Source: a virus
Reading direction: 5' to 3' (one strand)
Virus record (IMG/VR): IMGVR_UViG_3300004805_000042
Location: 1 to 21,765 of that record
Length of the DNA stretch: 21,765 bases
Shown in pieces: positions 6,207-19,045 of this stretch. The notes below the pieces were generated by a model. It worked only from the letters and a program-made list of their open reading frames with translations. It had not been told where the DNA came from and did not search any database. The translations under genes were made by a program, and so were the position numbers. How positions within the stretch are numbered: the stretch's first letter is position 1; each line of letters starts with the position of its first letter.

Positions 6207-6368
6207 TCAGACCGCCTTTCCCTTGTTCGCCGTTTCCCACACGTCCGAGATCACCCGGTCGACCGTGCCCGACCCGAGAACCGCGTCGATCGCCTGGCGA
6301 ACGGTGAGCCCCTCGGCGACCTTGTTCAAGATTGCGACGGTGATCTTCGTCTTCAGTTCGTTGGTCAT
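6207..6368 (-). CDS. Small helical protein from a leaderless-type promoter (53 aa)
   Basis: The start is ATG 6368 (MTNELKTKITV), not the upstream extension, because the frame before it is translated promoter sequence that recurs elsewhere in the window. A TTGACA-N17-TTATCT promoter puts the predicted transcription start at this ATG, and no Shine-Dalgarno is present. The protein is one or two helices (ILNKVAEGLTVRQAIDAVLG) reminiscent of a small helix-turn-helix, but no family is assigned. It gives the following tiny gene and lipoprotein a second promoter. Confidence 0.7.
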   Translation of the reverse strand: MTNELKTKITVAILNKVAEGLTVRQAIDAVLGSGTVDRVISDVWETANKGKAV

Positions 6369-6375
6369 GACGAAT

Positions 6376-6404
6376 AGATAAATCAGTTCACCCCTAAGTG
6401 TCAA
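6376..6404 (-). promoter_or_regulatory. Leaderless-type sigma70 promoter, class I spacer
   Basis: On the minus strand: TTGACA (6399-6404), 17-base spacer cttaggggtgaactgat, TTATCT (6376-6381), then seven bases (attcgtc) to ATG 6368. The -35 is perfect. The spacer is identical to the copy at 9448-9476 and differs by one base from 18928-18956. Confidence 0.85.
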
Positions 6405-6411
6405 GCGCAAC

Positions 6412-6438
6412 GATCGCCGAAAGCGATCTTTTTTATTT
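6412..6438 (+). terminator. Intrinsic terminator reading on the plus strand
   Basis: Perfect six-base stem GATCGC / GCGATC with loop CGAAA, followed by TTTTTTATTT on the plus strand. The reverse orientation has no U-tract. All genes here are on the minus strand, so this would stop antisense transcription into the region. Confidence 0.5.
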
Positions 6439-7416: not shown

Positions 7417-7603
7417 AGTGCGCGCGAACTTCTGAGAAACCGTCGTTTTCGATTTTCGGGTATTTTCGGCGCGAGAAATGTCGCGGAAAATGCCGCCCGG
7501 GCTCATTTGATCAGGGTCTCGCACGCGCAACCCTTCGAGATTATTCGGGAATGATTTCCTCGGATTAATTCGACCTGATCAGGCGCTTGCGTAAGCGCCG
7601 AGA

Positions 7604-8128
7604 ATGAGTCACCCTAGCTCTATGTCTTCGCAATTCAAGCGCGATCAAGTGCAGATCCGCGACCCCGTGACCGGGCACCTCAAGAAAGGTTCGCGATTGA
7701 ATCCGAGCGGGCGAAATGGTTCGCGCTCGCCTTTGTGGAACATGCTCGATCAAATGCTCGGTGACAACGCCGTCGAGTGTTACGTGTTCGCGGCGAACGT
7801 CATGAGAGGCACCGCAAGCGGACCCGCGCGAAAACCCGCGCCAGGTGAAGACGTTTCGAGCGCGGCCCTGATCCCTCTCGTTCCGCCCACAATTCGAGAG
7901 CGGCTCGACGCGGCGCAATGGCTCGCCGAGCAACGCAACGGGCGCGCACCTTCGACGACCTCGCTCGAATTGTCGGGCTCGCTCGAGTTGCCGAACGTGC
8001 GGATCAATCCCGAGAAGCTCACCGACGACGAACTCGAGCGGCTCGAGGCTCTCACGTTGAAGGCGCTCGAGACGGGCGAAACGGTCGACGGTGAGTTCGT
8101 CGAGAGCCCGCCGAAGGCGCTCCCGTGA
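7604..8128 (+). CDS. Terminase small-subunit-like protein (DUF5681-like)
   Basis: 174 residues, first gene of the rightward packaging/head block. The N-terminal part (DPVTGHLKKGSRLNPSGRNG) resembles the basic G-x-S/N-P-x-G-R segment of DUF5681 proteins, and the centre (TIRERLDAAQWLAEQRNGRAP, then a LELSG motif) matches the helical region common to small terminase-like proteins of this group; LTDDELERLEALTLKAL is a typical C-terminal helix. Small terminases recognise the packaging site and load the large subunit. ATG 7604 is used; ATG 7622 (MSSQFKRDQ) is equally possible because neither has a Shine-Dalgarno. Assignment rests on pattern and position before the large terminase. Confidence 0.6.
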   Translation: MSHPSSMSSQFKRDQVQIRDPVTGHLKKGSRLNPSGRNGSRSPLWNMLDQMLGDNAVECYVFAANVMRGTASGPARKPAPGEDVSSAALIPLVPPTIRERLDAAQWLAEQRNGRAPSTTSLELSGSLELPNVRINPEKLTDDELERLEALTLKALETGETVDGEFVESPPKALP

Positions 8129-8217
8129 GCGTCGTTCTCGTGTTCGCGGTGTGCGCCCTGGCGGTGCTCGCTTTCGACTTGGGAGACCCGCCAGGGCCGC
8201 CAGGCGTGCCCGCTTAG
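8125..8217 (+). CDS. Possible 30-residue membrane peptide
   Basis: A GTG in a GTGA overlap with the previous stop, with GAAGG eight bases upstream, opens a 30-residue frame: a hydrophobic segment (VVLVFAVCALAVLAF) followed by a short Pro/Gly tail. It would be a single-span peptide. Its TAG overlaps the TAA of the convergent minus-strand gene. Coupling and ribosome site support translation, but the size makes it uncertain. Confidence 0.4.
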   Translation: MSVVLVFAVCALAVLAFDLGDPPGPPGVPA

Positions 8218-8426
8218 ACCTCTTCACCGATCAGGTCGGGGCGCTTCGCGGCGATGATCGCGCGGGCGTGCATGAGACCACACGAGCACGCGCCCTCCCG
8301 TTGCGACCATGAACCGTTACAGGCCGACGCGTGCGCCGCGCTCGGCTCCCACGCGAGAAGCGTCGCGAATTCGGTTTCGGTGATCGTCTCGAGGTTCATC
8401 GCCTTGATTTGTTCGTGCGTGGTCAT
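8214..8426 (-). CDS. Small cysteine-containing protein, last gene of the accessory array (70 aa)
   Basis: ATG 8426 lies seven bases from a -10 hexamer with no Shine-Dalgarno, so translation should be leaderless. The sequence (MTTHEQIKAMNLETITETEF) has an N-terminal helical half, then C-containing segments (SACNGSWSQ, GACSCGLMHARAI) that could bind a metal. No family is recognised. It converges on the small-terminase unit. As a separately promoted small gene opposite to structural genes it may be an early accessory or host-takeover gene; that is inference. Confidence 0.65.
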   Translation of the reverse strand: MTTHEQIKAMNLETITETEFATLLAWEPSAAHASACNGSWSQREGACSCGLMHARAIIAAKRPDLIGEEV

Positions 8427-8433
8427 GACGAAT

Positions 8434-8462
8434 AGATAACTCGGTTCGGGTGGGTTTGTCAA
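8434..8462 (-). promoter_or_regulatory. Leaderless-type sigma70 promoter, class II spacer
   Basis: Minus strand TTGACA (8457-8462), 17-base spacer aacccacccgaaccgag, TTATCT (8434-8439), attcgtc, ATG 8426. The -35 overlaps the U-tract of the upstream terminator. Confidence 0.85.
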
Positions 8463-8499
8463 AAGAAAAGAGCGGGCTCGAGCGATTTCTCAAACCCGC
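8461..8499 (-). terminator. Intrinsic terminator between accessory genes
   Basis: Minus strand GCGGGTTTGAG (8489-8499) pairs with CTCGAGCCCGC (8472-8482) through 11 base pairs including two G-U pairs, six-base loop, then a U-rich tail TCTTTTCTTTT. It ends the 8758-8516 gene and its tail is shared with the next -35 box. Confidence 0.75.
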
Positions 8500-8515
8500 C
8501 CCTAATTTCGGTCGC

Positions 8516-8758
8516 TTAGATCTCTTCGTAGCGAACGACGCCCTCGGCTTCGAACATCGGGCCGTTCAGACCGCGAACGAACGGCGCGCCGTCGATCTCA
8601 GGGCGAATCGGGAGCCGAACCGAGCGCTTCACCTTGCCCGTGAACTCCCACCCGCGCACGTTGCACGCGGGCTCGAGGTTCTCGAAGGCAACACGGATCG
8701 TGCCCTGGCTCTTCGTGACGATTACGGCGGCGGTTGCGGTCGGGTTTGCGTTGGTCAT
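8516..8758 (-). CDS. Small beta-rich protein of the accessory array (80 aa)
   Basis: Leaderless-type start at ATG 8758 (MTNANPTATAAVIVTKSQ). The protein looks like a small all-beta fold (AAVIVTKSQGTIRVAFENLE, WEFTGKVKRSVRLPI) with a single cysteine. No family is recognised. It has its own promoter and terminator and so forms an independent transcription unit. Function unknown. Confidence 0.68.
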   Translation of the reverse strand: MTNANPTATAAVIVTKSQGTIRVAFENLEPACNVRGWEFTGKVKRSVRLPIRPEIDGAPFVRGLNGPMFEAEGVVRYEEI

Positions 8759-8765
8759 GAGCTAG

Positions 8766-8794
8766 TTATAAATCGGTTCGGGTGGGGTTGTCAA
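8766..8794 (-). promoter_or_regulatory. Leaderless-type sigma70 promoter, class II spacer
   Basis: Minus strand TTGACA (8789-8794), spacer accccacccgaaccgat (17 bases), TTATAA (8766-8771), ctagctc, ATG 8758. The -10 differs from the other copies but spacing is exact. Confidence 0.85.
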
Positions 8795-8803
8795 ACTTAA
8801 TTC

Positions 8804-8835
8804 GACGGGCTCGGTTGATTTCTCTCGAGCCCGTC
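8804..8835. terminator. Hairpin between accessory genes, possibly bidirectional
   Basis: GACGGGCTCG (8804-8813) and CGAGCCCGTC (8826-8835) form a perfect ten-base-pair stem with a 12-base loop. On the plus strand it is followed by TTTTC, on the minus strand by an AU-rich stretch before the next -35, so it could stop transcription either way. Confidence 0.6.
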
Positions 8836-8847
8836 TTTTCGGTCGGC

Positions 8848-9051
8848 TTACTTGAGCCCGTTCACGCGGCAAAAGGACTCGAACGCTTCCGACGCTTCGG
8901 CGAGATCCTTCGAGGGGCCGCCGTTGAACGCCGCGAAGCCGCGAAGCTCTTTCAGGGTCTCGCGTTCCTGGCGGGCGAACGCCTCGAGGCGGGCGCGGTT
9001 GTTCTTCAGGTCTTCAGTGATGCGAGCGAGGCGGGCGGTTGCGTTGGTCAT
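8848..9051 (-). CDS. Small helical protein of the accessory array (67 aa)
   Basis: Leaderless-type start at ATG 9051. Residues 5-40 (LARITEDLKNNRARLEAFAR and on) are predicted helical with heptad-like leucines, so a short coiled coil or helical hairpin is likely. No family is recognised. The first codons (ATG ACC AAC GCA) are shared with the neighbouring array genes because the duplicated promoter cassette extends into the coding start. Function unknown. Confidence 0.68.
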   Translation of the reverse strand: MTNATARLARITEDLKNNRARLEAFARQERETLKELRGFAAFNGGPSKDLAEASEAFESFCRVNGLK

Positions 9052-9058
9052 GACGAAT

Positions 9059-9087
9059 AGATAACTCGGTTCGGGTGGGTCTGTCAA
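9059..9087 (-). promoter_or_regulatory. Leaderless-type sigma70 promoter, class II spacer
   Basis: Minus strand TTGACA (9082-9087), spacer gacccacccgaaccgag, TTATCT (9059-9064), attcgtc, ATG 9051. Confidence 0.85.
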
Positions 9088-9098
9088 ACGTAATTCGA

Positions 9099-9125
9099 CG
9101 GGCTCGGTCGATTTCTTCGAGCCCG
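9099..9125. terminator. Hairpin downstream of the first array gene
   Basis: CGGGCTCG (9099-9106) and CGAGCCCG (9118-9125) form an eight-base-pair stem with an 11-base loop related to the hairpin at 8804-8835. It lacks a good U-tract, so it may be a terminator remnant or a repeat-borne structure. Confidence 0.45.
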
Positions 9126-9140
9126 CCTGATTTCGTGCGC

Positions 9141-9440
9141 TTACAGGCTCGTATCGAGCCCGGTCAGATCCTTGAACACGAGCGCCAGGTTTTCCGCGTA
9201 CACGTCCGAGACGGGCTCGAGGGTCTCGAAGTATTTCGGCGCGGGGCGGCGCTTGTACGCGGTGACCGTGTACGTGTCCGAAGCCTCGAGAGTGATCTTC
9301 ACCGTCCACACCTTAGAAATGCGCGGGAGCTTCATTGTCAGGCTCGAGGCTTCGGCGGTGAGCGAGTGAGCGCCCGTCATTGCCAGGAAGCGGTTACCGC
9401 CGAGTTGCTCGAGAATGGTCGTCGCGATCGCGTTGGTCAT
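9141..9440 (-). CDS. Conserved small phage protein with QLGGxxFxxMTGA motif (99 aa)
   Basis: Leaderless-type start at ATG 9440. Residues 10-24 (LEQLGGNRFLAMTGA), the central WTVKITLEASDTYTVTAY and the C-terminal VYAENLALVFKDLTGL match a pattern I know from small hypothetical proteins in many phages and mobile elements, where its function has not been settled. It is the promoter-proximal gene of the antisense array between the two terminase genes, with its own promoter. Recognition of the family pattern is good; function is unknown. Confidence 0.78.
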   Translation of the reverse strand: MTNAIATTILEQLGGNRFLAMTGAHSLTAEASSLTMKLPRISKVWTVKITLEASDTYTVTAYKRRPAPKYFETLEPVSDVYAENLALVFKDLTGLDTSL

Positions 9441-9447
9441 GACGAAT

Positions 9448-9476
9448 AGATAAATCAGTTCACCCCTAAGTGTCAA
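9448..9476 (-). promoter_or_regulatory. Leaderless-type sigma70 promoter, class I spacer
   Basis: Minus strand TTGACA (9471-9476), spacer cttaggggtgaactgat, TTATCT (9448-9453), attcgtc, ATG 9440. Identical to the copy at 6376-6404 over the whole element. Confidence 0.87.
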
Positions 9477-9490
9477 GTGCTCATGATCGA

Positions 9491-9527
9491 AAATCGACCG
9501 ACGCGGCGCGGCATGGTAAATCGACCG
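9491..9527. repeat. Direct repeat of AAATCGACCG before the terminase gene
   Basis: The 10-mer occurs at 9491-9500 and 9518-9527, immediately before terL. The same word on the other strand lies upstream of two minus-strand promoters (9105-9114, 18974-18983), so it may be a regulator site. Confidence 0.5.
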
Positions 9528-15082: not shown

Positions 15083-16315
15083 ATGGCGAACCCGTTCAGA
15101 TACCCATTCCCCGGGCGAGCGGGTCGCACGGGCCGAATCGGCAAGGCTCGAACGGGCGTCGGCTTGCTCTCGCCGTTCGTCAACGGCGGGGCAACGCAAG
15201 CGGGCGAAGACGTATTTCGCTCGGGTGTCTTCGGTGTCGTAGTCGTCGGAAACCAAACCGTCTCGCCGAACGGACTCGCGATCCCGGTCTCGTTCGGCTC
15301 GCCTACGGTTCAGGCAACCGCGACCGTTGCACCGAGCGGGCTCGCGATCCCGATCTCGCTCGGCGCACCGACGCTCACCGCGAACGCGACCGTTTCGCCG
15401 AACGGGCTCGCCGTACCTCTCACGCTCGGCGCGCCGTCGGTGCAACCGGGCTCGGTGACCGTCTCGCCGAACGGCATTGCGATCCCGGTTTCGTTCGGCT
15501 CGCCGACTGTCACACAACCCACGCTCATTCAACCGAACGGGATCGCCGTACCTCTCACGCTCGGCGCGCCGTCGGTGCAACCGGGCTCGGTGAACGTGTC
15601 GCCGAACGGGCTCGCCCTGGCGGTGACCCTCGGCGCACCGACCCTCACCGCGACCGCGACCGTCTCGCCGAATGGCGTCGCGCTCCCGCTCGCGTTGGGC
15701 GCTCCTACGCTCACCGCGACCGCGACCGTTTCGCCGAACGGGGTCTCGATCCCGCTCTCGTTCGGTGCGGCGACGATCACCGCGCCCGCGCCTGGCGCGC
15801 TCACGATCTCGCCGAACGGTGTCGCGATCCCGATTACCTTCGGCGCGCCGTCGGTGCAACCGGGCTCGGTGAACATCGCACCGAACGGGCTCGCCGTTCC
15901 CCTGGCGCTCGGATCGCCGACGGTCACCGCCTCGAGAACGGTCTCGGTGAATGGCGTCGCGATCCCGATCACCTTCGGCGCGCCGTCGGTGCAACCGGGC
16001 TCGGTGAACATCGCACCGAACGGGGTCTCGATCCCGGTCTCGTTCGGCTCGCCTTCGGTGTCGGCGGCGTGGTTTGTGACCCCGAACGGGATCTCGATCC
16101 CGATCTCGTTCGGTGCGCCGTCGGTCTCGTCGATCGCTGGCGGGGCTCAAACGATCTCGGTGAACGGGCTTCGAATTCCGATCTCGTTTGGCTTGCTCGT
16201 GATCGCCGACCGCACAAACGAGCGCGAAGTGTATCTCGGGCCGCCCTTGGGTTTCCCGTCGAGTCGAGCTAGGAAGTCGATCGGCTTCGTTCCGAAACGA
16301 GGGAAATGGACTTGA
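15083..16315 (+). CDS. Tandem-repeat beta-rich virion or tail protein (410 aa)
   Basis: A 56-residue N-terminal part rich in Gly/Arg (PFRYPFPGRAGRTGRIG) is followed by 14 repeats of 22 to 26 residues, consensus VSPNGLAIPVSFGSPTV with a variable Thr/Ala linker, and a 40-residue basic C-terminus. Each repeat is predicted to be two beta strands, which suggests an elongated beta-solenoid or stacked fibre. The neighbourhood (between structural genes and the Mu F-like protein) suggests a virion surface or fibre protein; no database family is recognised. GTAAGC, including the previous TAA stop, lies seven bases before ATG 15083; the nearest ribosome-like site (GAAGGG) is farther than usual. The stop overlaps the next gene by ten bases. 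Confidence 0.75.
   Translation: MANPFRYPFPGRAGRTGRIGKARTGVGLLSPFVNGGATQAGEDVFRSGVFGVVVVGNQTVSPNGLAIPVSFGSPTVQATATVAPSGLAIPISLGAPTLTANATVSPNGLAVPLTLGAPSVQPGSVTVSPNGIAIPVSFGSPTVTQPTLIQPNGIAVPLTLGAPSVQPGSVNVSPNGLALAVTLGAPTLTATATVSPNGVALPLALGAPTLTATATVSPNGVSIPLSFGAATITAPAPGALTISPNGVAIPITFGAPSVQPGSVNIAPNGLAVPLALGSPTVTASRTVSVNGVAIPITFGAPSVQPGSVNIAPNGVSIPVSFGSPSVSAAWFVTPNGISIPISFGAPSVSSIAGGAQTISVNGLRIPISFGLLVIADRTNEREVYLGPPLGFPSSRARKSIGFVPKRGKWT
15251..16192 (+). repeat. Coding tandem repeats with exact duplications
   Basis: Fourteen repeats of about 68 bases. A 50-base block at 15409-15458 recurs exactly at 15544-15593, and a 54-base block at 15836-15889 recurs exactly at 15971-16024. Both pairs are offset by 135 bases (45 codons, two protein repeats). 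Confidence 0.88.
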
Positions 16316-17313: not shown

Positions 17314-17775
17314 CTACGTATTTGCACGCATCGCAAGTTGAACTAGAGCTTCGGCGGCTTGAGCGGGGACCACTCCGTTACCCGTGAGTCGAAGTCGGTC
17401 CACCCGATAGGCCAACCCATGAGCCATTCGACGAATCGAGGGTTCAAGGTCCGGTCGTTTCTCAGAGACGACGCGCCATTTTTCGAACTCGTCGGGTCCA
17501 GGCGGGAACGTAAGGTCAACGCCGTTGGAGTCAAACACGGGCTCTTGCGCTCGAACTCGGCGGGTGACCCCGTGTCTTTCCAATCTCTCGCCGCCGCCGT
17601 CGGCCAGAGACGCACCGCGCGATCTGTAAGCGTCACGCCCGCGTGTCGACCGCTCTCGGTTGAATACGCTTCCGACCCCGACGCTTTCGAGTCTCCTACC
17701 GTCGCGGTAGGCCAGTATGAAGAGACGATCTCGGGAGTGACTGGCTCCAACGTCGGCCGCTCGGAAAGTGCCCAT
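17314..17775 (-). pseudogene. Displaced C-terminal part of the C5 methyltransferase (motifs VIII and X)
   Basis: A second frame contains AADVGASHSRDRLFILAYRDG, the C5-methyltransferase motif VIII region, then a variable target-recognition-like part, FPPGPDEFEKW, and near the end RLRLTGNGVVPAQAAEALVQL, the motif X helix. It joins to the upstream frame if one G is added to the GGG at 17774-17770 (W153 followed by GTFRAAD). The rebuilt enzyme would be about 305 residues, a normal size for a small phage enzyme. Translation by itself is unlikely because the frame's ATG has no ribosome site. Confidence 0.65.
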
Positions 17776-18230
17776 TCCGCATTGAACCCGAGCGAGGCAA
17801 GATCGGACAAGACGACTTCAAGTCCGCGTGTTCGGAGCGCGGCGACGTTTTCAATCGCGACCAATCCAGGGCGAACTTCGTCGAGAATTCGAACGTATTC
17901 CTTCCAAAGCCCGGATCGAGCCCCCCCGATTCCCGCTCGCTTCCCTGCGTTTGAAATGTCTTGGCACGGGAACCCGCCAGCGACGACGCCCACCAAACCG
18001 CGAAAGGGGCGTCCATCGAAGGAAGTAACATCCGTGAAAATAGGCGCTGGATCCAAGTGTCCCGTTTCCATGCGCGAAGCCAATAGCTCGACGGCATAGG
18101 CTTCCCTCTCGACGAAAGCGACGACTCGGCGAGCGACGCCAGCGAGTTCGAGCCCCATGTCGAGACCGCCGCCGCCGCTGAATAGACTGATCGAATTGAA
18201 CTCGGAAGAATCCACATTATCACGCCCCAT
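17343..18230 (-). CDS. C5-cytosine DNA methyltransferase, probably split by a frameshift
   Basis: AAAGG precedes ATG 18230 by about eight bases. Motif I LFSGGGGLDMGLELAG (16-31) binds S-adenosylmethionine; motif IV GGFPCQDIS carries catalytic C89; motif VI is ENV at 127-129. After W153 this frame lacks motifs VIII and X, which are found in the overlapping frame at 17314-17775. Yet the rest of this frame is not random: WPTATVGDSKASGSEAY, the WPTAAARDWKD repeat and LNPRFVEWLMGWPIGWTDF are segments also seen in phage methyltransferase tails. So either this is an inactive, frameshifted enzyme or an alternative tail. The enzyme would methylate cytosine in a specific site and may shield phage DNA from restriction. 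The DNA here is less GC-rich than the flanking late genes, which suggests acquisition. Confidence 0.78.
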   Translation of the reverse strand: MGRDNVDSSEFNSISLFSGGGGLDMGLELAGVARRVVAFVEREAYAVELLASRMETGHLDPAPIFTDVTSFDGRPFRGLVGVVAGGFPCQDISNAGKRAGIGGARSGLWKEYVRILDEVRPGLVAIENVAALRTRGLEVVLSDLASLGFNAEWALSERPTLEPVTPEIVSSYWPTATVGDSKASGSEAYSTESGRHAGVTLTDRAVRLWPTAAARDWKDTGSPAEFERKSPCLTPTALTLRSRLDPTSSKNGASSLRNDRTLNPRFVEWLMGWPIGWTDFDSRVTEWSPLKPPKL

Positions 18231-18231
18231 T

Positions 18232-18248
18232 CTCTGAACCTTTCAGAG
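18232..18248. promoter_or_regulatory. Palindrome over the methyltransferase ribosome site
   Basis: CTCTGAA-N3-TTCAGAG is a perfect 7-base inverted repeat. On the minus strand the AAAGG ribosome site lies within it, just before ATG 18230. It could be an operator or an RNA hairpin that masks the site. Confidence 0.5.
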
Positions 18249-18261
18249 TTTCGATCTACAG

Positions 18262-18573
18262 TCAAACAGGTTTCTTGATCGAGAGGGCGCGGCACACTTC
18301 CGCACCGAGAAAGAGGTTCAAGAGCGAGAACGAGATCACGTTCGGCGAGAGATCGAGAACGCGCTCGAGCCTGGCGACCTCCCGATTCACCGAGCGGCGA
18401 ACGTTTTCGGCGGCGCTCACGAGCGCCTGAAGTTCGGGCGGCTCGGGCTTGAACCCGCCCGCGACGATCTTTTCAATCGAGCGGTGAACGGCTCGGAAGG
18501 TGAACACATGCCGCTTCGTCTCGTCGTCGACGAGTTCGAGCGAGTTCCGATAGGTGAATTCGAACGCGCTCAC
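18262..18573 (-). CDS. Small helical protein upstream of the methyltransferase (103 aa)
   Basis: GTG 18573 is chosen over GTG 18579 because GAGGTG lies five bases before it and it forms a GTGA overlap with the upstream stop. Begins VSAFEFTYRNSLELVDDETK; the middle (ELQALVSAAENVRRSVNREV) is helical, and a hydrophobic C-terminal stretch (VISFSLLNLFLGAEVC) may be buried or membrane-facing. No family is recognised. It is co-transcribed with the methyltransferase, 31 bases upstream of it. Confidence 0.68.
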   Translation of the reverse strand: MSAFEFTYRNSLELVDDETKRHVFTFRAVHRSIEKIVAGGFKPEPPELQALVSAAENVRRSVNREVARLERVLDLSPNVISFSLLNLFLGAEVCRALSIKKPV

Positions 18574-18920
18574 GCCCACACCTCACGGGCGGCGGCGCAT
18601 GCCTGGCGCACGGACTCGAGGATCTCGATCTTCTCGAAGGGGCGCGAGTGCGAGATCGACGAGGTGAACTCGGGCGCGGTTTCGAAGCGCTTCGTGTGCG
18701 TGCTCACGTAGGCGACGAAATCACCGACGCGAACCGTGAACGCGTAGGGGTCCGCGCCCGGTCCCGTGCTGAACGCTTCAACAACCGAGTAGCGGCGGCC
18801 GTCGATCTCGACTTCAGGCTTTGCGTTCGAGAACGCGGCCCGCGACGCCTGGCGCTTGTCGAAGTCGGCTTTCATTTCCGCGAGAATCGTTTCGGCGAGC
18901 GACGAAGTGTTTTTGTTCAT
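18570..18920 (-). CDS. Accessory protein from a leaderless-type promoter (116 aa)
   Basis: ATG 18920 is seven bases from a TTATCT -10 and has no Shine-Dalgarno. The N-terminus is helical (SLAETILAEMKADFDKRQAS), the centre beta-rich (VEIDGRRYSVVEAFSTG, YAFTVRVGDFVAYVSTHTK), the end helical (ILESVRQACAAAREVW). No family is recognised. It heads the minus-strand block containing the methyltransferase and so sets the timing of that block. Confidence 0.72.
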   Translation of the reverse strand: MNKNTSSLAETILAEMKADFDKRQASRAAFSNAKPEVEIDGRRYSVVEAFSTGPGADPYAFTVRVGDFVAYVSTHTKRFETAPEFTSSISHSRPFEKIEILESVRQACAAAREVWA

Positions 18921-18927
18921 GACGAAT

Positions 18928-18956
18928 AGATAAATCACTTCACCCCTAAGTGTCAA
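18928..18956 (-). promoter_or_regulatory. Leaderless-type sigma70 promoter, class I spacer
   Basis: Minus strand TTGACA (18951-18956), spacer cttaggggtgaagtgat, TTATCT (18928-18933), attcgtc, ATG 18920. One spacer base differs from the copies at 6376 and 9448. It should drive the four-gene methyltransferase block. Confidence 0.85.
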
Positions 18957-19045
18957 GAGAATCGAAAGCCTTTCGGTCGATTTCTAGGTTTACCGTTAGG
19001 TTTCGCACACTTGCGCGGGCATTCGAAACGCTCGATCCTGTGGGC

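Follow-up and report, generated by a model that had tools for sequence, protein, structure and literature searches.

The gap between the two terminase genes of an uncultured phage, known from a 21.8-kb IMG/VR virus record (the window, meaning that whole stretch of DNA), is likely to be a fixed site for accessory genes set against the late packaging operon, in which cassettes would be exchanged via repeated terminator-promoter units and expressed as early leaderless transcripts. The comparison covers three distinct phages: that of the window, to which contigs L005, L066 and L067 also belong; L006, a 51.9-kb contig (TerL 82%); and L073 (TerS 68%).

Setting and gene content of the array

The early genes of the window, comprising exonuclease, primase and small ORFs, are oriented leftward, and TerS, TerL and the structural genes rightward. 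In the gap that separates TerS from TerL, four small ORFs stand in tandem on the minus strand, as a sequence-only reading of this DNA had pointed out, and its description of them as unrelated agrees with blastp among the four, in which no pair matches at E<1. The features of the array and its flanks are as follows.

7604..8128, plus strand: flanking gene at the TerS position, named TerS for that position; kept in L006 and L073
8214..8426, minus strand: gene d, 70 aa, no relatives found
8415..8518, minus strand: junction unit c>d, with the stop of c, hairpin and U-tract (8468-8503), promoter (8427-8462) and codons 1-4 of d
8516..8758, minus strand: gene c, 80 aa, L006 orthologue about 87%
8747..8850, minus strand: junction unit b>c, with the stop of b, hairpin (8804-8835), promoter (8759-8794, -10 TATAAC) and codons 1-4 of c
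8848..9051, minus strand: gene b, 67 aa, no relatives found
9040..9143, minus strand: junction unit a>b, with the stop of a, hairpin (9097-9127), promoter (9052-9087) and codons 1-4 of b
9141..9440, minus strand: gene a, 99 aa, PHROG_9437 (unknown function)
9441..9476, minus strand: promoter of gene a at the array head (TTGACA, 18-nt spacer, TATCTA, 6 nt, ATG)
9485..9511, plus strand: TerL-side array border, GATCGAAAATCGACCGACGCGGCGCGG, kept in L006 and L073
9529..11028, plus strand: flanking TerL, PHROG_38, PF17289

Searches of Pfam and PHROGs returned no family of known function for genes a to d or for the L006 cassette genes, PHROG_9437 being the sole described family among the four, and the TerS-position gene gave no family match. 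Orthologues of gene a occur in L006, in L007 and in 32 phage records; the relatives from Rhodobacter phage RcSpartan and from Agrobacterium phage Milano lie amid small hypothetical genes. Its AF2 model is confident (pLDDT 90), while that of gene c is unusable (pLDDT 36). The best PDB match of gene a in Foldseek, 1kaf, is weak and not significant (E 0.065, TM 0.44), and a direct comparison with the MotA fold (VIA Z 5.8, rmsd 3.6, 84 aligned) is tied by unrelated folds; the likeness to a double-wing DNA-binding domain of the T4 MotA C-terminal type therefore does not stand out from that to other folds, and we claim no function for gene a.

Among annotated phages, the best matches are those of Aeromonas (vB_AsaM-56, 44 kb), Paracoccus, Roseobacter, Cellulophaga and Myxococcus (Mx4), and the longest contig among the relatives is 52 kb. 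Against bacterial genomes, TerL finds only 32-44% matches in Alphaproteobacteria, too low for naming a host. Several features nearby stand apart from the array. Immediately 5' of the TerS start, at 7582-7599, lies a perfect inverted repeat, GGCGCTTgcgtAAGCGCC, in a single copy where shuffles predict none; it is a possible operator of a divergent early/late control region. Directly behind TerS, at 8125-8218 (+) in the window and about 6342-6420 (+) in L006, a micro-ORF (VSVVLVFAVCALAVLAFDLGDPPGPPGVPA and MIALSVAFFMALVILGYDDDPPSPA, respectively) likely encodes a small membrane peptide, and its stop overlaps the stop of antisense gene d. Farther along, 15083-16315 (+) encodes a 410-aa protein of ~22-residue repeats (SPNGLAIPISFGAPTV), whose copy number apparently varies among relatives.

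A repeated terminator-promoter unit joins the genes

Three copies of a single composite unit of ~107 nt link genes a to d. Each begins at the stop codon of the preceding gene and extends to about codon 4 of the following one; in the window its parts are, in order, a hairpin terminator, the -35 box TTGACA, a spacer of 18 nt, a TAT-type -10, a gap of exactly 6 nt and the ATG. With the copies anchored on their stop and start codons, mean pairwise identity in the window rises from 0.27-0.30 ahead of the stop to 0.62 between the stop and +16 and to 0.83 in the promoter, is 0.72 between the ATG and +12, and falls to 0.26-0.29 beyond. The L006 units behave alike, with 0.28-0.29 before the stop, 0.83 from the stop to +16, 0.79 in the promoter, 0.76 to +12 and 0.28-0.31 beyond. 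Across both phages, identity thus stays at chance level within genes (0.27-0.33 for coding sequence) and reaches 0.75-0.83 in promoters; this sharp rise at the unit borders bears out the earlier proposal that hairpin, promoter and ATG are duplicated as a cassette while the coding content differs.

Hairpins of the GGGCTCG/CGAGCCC type, likewise anticipated, occur at all three internal junctions (z -3.4 to -4.7), with comparable values for the hairpins of the L006 units (z -3.5 to -5.2), and their loop carries an invariant GAAATC. The 3' end of gene d is without such a hairpin and folds weakly above background (z -1.9). Between the window and its relative, the stems covary, with 8 cells changed on both sides and none of 500 shuffles scoring as high, in a test whose arms were hand-aligned from the loop, an anchoring that favours the stem. 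RNAalifold on a MAFFT alignment of whole units gave no consensus pairs because the hairpin arms are misaligned there. The claim that a terminator U-tract overlaps the next -35 box applies to c>d (CTCTTTTCTTTTGACA), while the U-tract is weak at a>b and b>c. All four copies of the loop motif AAATCGACCG in the window lie at a junction or island border.

Exact promoter and junction patterns searched in IMG/VR retrieved nothing beyond the same phage and the L006 contig, and a sequence model of the unit found no match in L007-L012, L016 or L044-L046, so the unit itself is clade-specific.

Cassette promoters and predicted leaderless starts

All four array genes have a promoter of the same kind, as the sequence-only reading had stated, although the copy before gene c has diverged (TTGACA...TATAAC...ATG). 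The pattern TTGACA-N17-TTATCTATTCGTCATGA occurs five times in the window, always on the minus strand, with none expected in shuffles, and of the seven TTGACA words found there, six belong to cassette promoters. Two of the five copies, which had gone unmentioned, lie outside the array before the genes at 6207-6368 and 18570-18920, in the early region and in a second antisense island, respectively:

6207..6404, minus strand: cassette e in the early region, promoter (6369-6404) and 53-aa gene
17343..18573, minus strand: rest of the second island, g2 and C5 DNA methyltransferase
17343-18230, minus strand: C5 DNA methyltransferase, PF00145
18262-18573, minus strand: g2, homologue of L006 15576-15851
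18570..18956, minus strand: cassette g in the second island, promoter (18921-18956) and 116-aa gene

Another TTGACA with a type-2-like spacer is found at 4564-4530 (-) in the window and 2998-2962 (-) in L006, where it overlaps the TAG stop 5' of an orthologous early gene and is not leaderless.

The window and L006 together have 12 cassette starts, and at every one of them the last base of the -10 lies exactly 6 nt before the ATG, a spacing that the sequence-only reading had not remarked on. None of these 12 starts has a Shine-Dalgarno (SD) sequence, compared with 27/34 other starts (Fisher p about 1e-6), a count that includes at least three misplaced start coordinates (primase, portal and DUF2213) and becomes 26/31 without the primase, scored positive, and two scored negative. 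The SD-positive other starts include most of the later genes within cassettes. With no SD and a -10 at 6 nt from the ATG, transcription would be expected to begin at or beside the A of the ATG, and the cassette mRNAs are therefore probably leaderless. A generic sigma-70 scan found none of the cassette promoters, owing to their weak -10 (TATCTA), a caveat on promoter strength. Early timing of the array is what we infer from the consensus TTGACA -35 and the direction shared with the early operon, and the cassette genes are probably early accessory (host-interaction) genes; the counter-defence or host-takeover role that the sequence-only reading had put forward as a possibility is conjectural for them.

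Relationships among the promoters follow the genome, not the gene. In the window, those of a and e, separated by 3 kb, match at every position from TTGACA to ATG, and the g promoter deviates from them at one base. Mean promoter identity is 0.82 within the window and 0.87 within L006 as against 0.71 between the genomes, where the promoters of orthologous genes are no closer than 0.69 (a) and 0.74 (e); the spacer measures 18 nt in all six window promoters and 16 nt in all six of L006. The window promoters fall into two subtypes with a common 3' half, differing in CTTAGGGGT versus RACCCACCC. Either genes have been dropped into resident cassettes or the units have been homogenised, and under both options recombination between unit copies is needed.

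Turnover between conserved borders

The proposal of a modular exchange site holds up in the relatives, whose genes differ in identity, order and number between conserved flanks. In the window the TerS-TerL gap contains a, b, c and d. The same gap in L006 has its genes in the same orientation, beginning with a cassette of e plus c, then a, then f and f2, with units of the same kind between cassettes; gene c here is without its own promoter and has an SD start instead. In L073, the gap contains one antisense gene, k, with a promoter reading TTGACA-16-TACTAT-7-ATG and no relative among the window or L006 cassette genes. Thus a and c are common to two phages in reversed order, and b, d, f and k are each unique among the three, while the flanking genes and the TerL-side border are kept in all three. 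Turnover at fixed borders is supported by these contents. Neither outcome that would have spoken against modular exchange is found: L006 and L073 do not repeat the same four genes in fixed order, and late co-transcription with the structural genes is excluded by the opposite orientation. In near-identical strains, no recombination joint was caught.

Gene e has relocated between the early region and the TerS-TerL array, lying beside the 6433 orthologue in the early region of the window and L073 and at the array head in L006. The small early genes W_4224, W_4565, W_5038, W_5256, W_5796, W_6433 and W_6835 have orthologues in order in the window and L006.

The second island, antisense between a Mu-F-like head gene and a DUF2213 gene, varies in content like the TerS-TerL array. 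Its place in L006 is taken by three cassettes (h1+h2, i and j+j2+j3), of which only j3 is related to g2, and the C5 DNA methyltransferase is absent there; the upstream border, including the 3' half of a unit, is alike in both phages. Gene g of the window (W_g) and gene i of L006 (X_i) begin alike (MNKNTSSL/MNNNNTSSL) and have nothing else in common, a single case that is suggestive of a joint just 3' of the start codon. The methyltransferase is a possible anti-restriction gene, and as a pointer to counter-defence its presence in this island is at best suggestive.

In a more distant relative, L007 (TerL 50%), the TerS-TerL region is free of any antisense array, and the gene-a copy lies instead in an early-region array with a different repeated, SD-led promoter: at L007 5036-6081 (-), TTGACA-17-TCTAAT recurs with an SD leader straight after stop codons. 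This early array appears to follow an equal logic with unrelated sequence.

A model of cassette exchange and its alternatives

In the model that we favour, host RNA polymerase would read each cassette promoter early in infection, producing an mRNA with its 5' end at or beside the AUG, and the hairpin would terminate each transcript ahead of the next cassette. The similar units of ~107 nt would provide homology for recombination, both within a genome and between co-infecting phages, so that whole cassettes of gene plus regulation could be gained, lost, reordered or moved between sites, with gene conversion keeping the units alike within a genome. The phage-encoded exonuclease, which matches PHROG_69/1218, is compatible with phage-driven recombination, though not proof of it.

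Duplicated regulatory sequence, kept under selection for a shared regulator or RNA polymerase, could also yield similar units, with gene differences arising by illegitimate recombination that does not involve them. The two window promoter subtypes could then be operator variants, the restriction of AAATCGACCG to junctions and borders in the window is binding-site-like, and the L007 early region likewise has its own unrelated repeated promoter. We nevertheless regard this explanation as unlikely, since terminator, loop, promoter and first codons are alike as one sharp-edged block that exceeds what a binding site needs, spacer lengths shift together per genome, and orthologous genes do not retain their promoters. 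Improbable to a greater degree is an ordinary multi-promoter early operon branch, co-transcribed throughout, in which the hairpins would be attenuators or processing sites. Cassettes of two or three genes (e+c, f+f2, h1+h2 and j+j2+j3) with mostly SD-led later genes are in keeping with such a branch, as is the weakness of the a>b and b>c U-tracts, which could permit read-through, but a stable hairpin stands right before a consensus -35 at each junction, and the first genes of cassettes lack any SD, so that poor translation would be expected from a read-through mRNA.

The presence of copies at several sites, and of a half-unit border at 18951-19000 in both phages, might instead recall what is left of a small MITE- or cassette-like mobile element that moves by a dedicated recombinase. 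This is very improbable: the sites show neither terminal inverted repeats nor target duplications, nor a recombinase, the units are confined strictly between stop and start codons, and the pattern searches in IMG/VR gave no unit match in other viral contigs. We rejected the mobile-element reading for want of both ends and recombinase.

Within the favoured model of homology-driven exchange, a bolder version is tentative and, in our judgement, open to considerable doubt: the unit may be a ribosome-site-free 'socket', and both antisense islands dedicated exchange sites for early anti-host genes. With transcription starting at the AUG, all that is needed for isolated expression would lie between a stop and the next start, and any ORF could thus be swapped via its flanking units without a fitting leader or SD. 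If so, the contents of the islands would offer a way to collect new early anti-host genes. The units mark the locations of small, probably early genes and could be used for gathering candidate anti-host proteins.

Comparison with known systems

The closest parallel is with promoter early stem-loop cassettes (PeSLs) of T4-type phages (Arbiol 2010; Comeau 2014), which, as described in PMC4503421 and PMC3950731, combine a stem-loop with an early promoter in the spaces between small genes, where shuffling is intense, and have been proposed to mediate that shuffling. Judged by that description, the array shares the coupling of a terminator stem-loop to a promoter of early type at the junctions of small genes, its early class resting on TTGACA, and it sits where gene content and order are shuffled, with three contents in three phages. 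It differs from the PeSLs so described in that its phage is not T4-type (TerL PHROG_38), in its antisense position within a late packaging operon, and in a promoter that abuts the ATG, with a predicted leaderless start and no SD. Since the T4-type setting is missing and the likeness noted here is one of layout, we do not class the array as a PeSL; megablast of the array region against phage records gave no match, a search too insensitive for PeSL kinship.

A conserved promoter-like box with an inverted repeat also precedes most ORFs of one arm of the haloarchaeal virus HGTV-1, for which PeSL-like shuffling has been proposed (PMC3950731). The array units share this combination of box and inverted repeat, whereas the HGTV-1 box is of the archaeal TATA type and belongs to another virus group.

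In cluster K mycobacteriophages, short repeats (SAS/ESAS), some with inverted repeats and promoters, mark the starts of many small non-structural genes, the SAS being a 13-bp motif, GGGATAGGAGCCC, that resembles an SD and lies 3-7 bp upstream of the start codon (PMC3203893, PMC11373665). This motif is absent from the 24 nt upstream of all 12 cassette starts. The array unit, unlike SAS/ESAS, has no SD and includes the terminator of the upstream gene, and whereas an ESAS stays with its gene family in cluster K, the array promoter does not.

Mycobacteriophages of cluster O are reported to have leaderless promoters, among them PL2, which serves a reverse gene located within the structural operon (PMC4351075), and the array resembles them, as far as that account goes, in its predicted leaderless mRNA and in a reverse gene within a structural operon. 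The features of leaderless genes, namely a -10 at 6-7 nt before the start codon and no SD, are found at the cassette starts. The cluster O promoters differ in being single rather than duplicated terminator-promoter units, and the account drawn on here describes no array or turnover.

By analogy, then, the array would work like PeSL cassettes, its new elements being the predicted leaderless start and the antisense placement in a late operon. Shuffling cassettes of promoter and stem-loop have so far been described in T4-type phages and suggested for one archaeal virus; an equal logic in a small unrelated phage group suggests that phages in general may plug in small early genes by such means, and the model of homology-driven exchange is directly testable through breakpoints.
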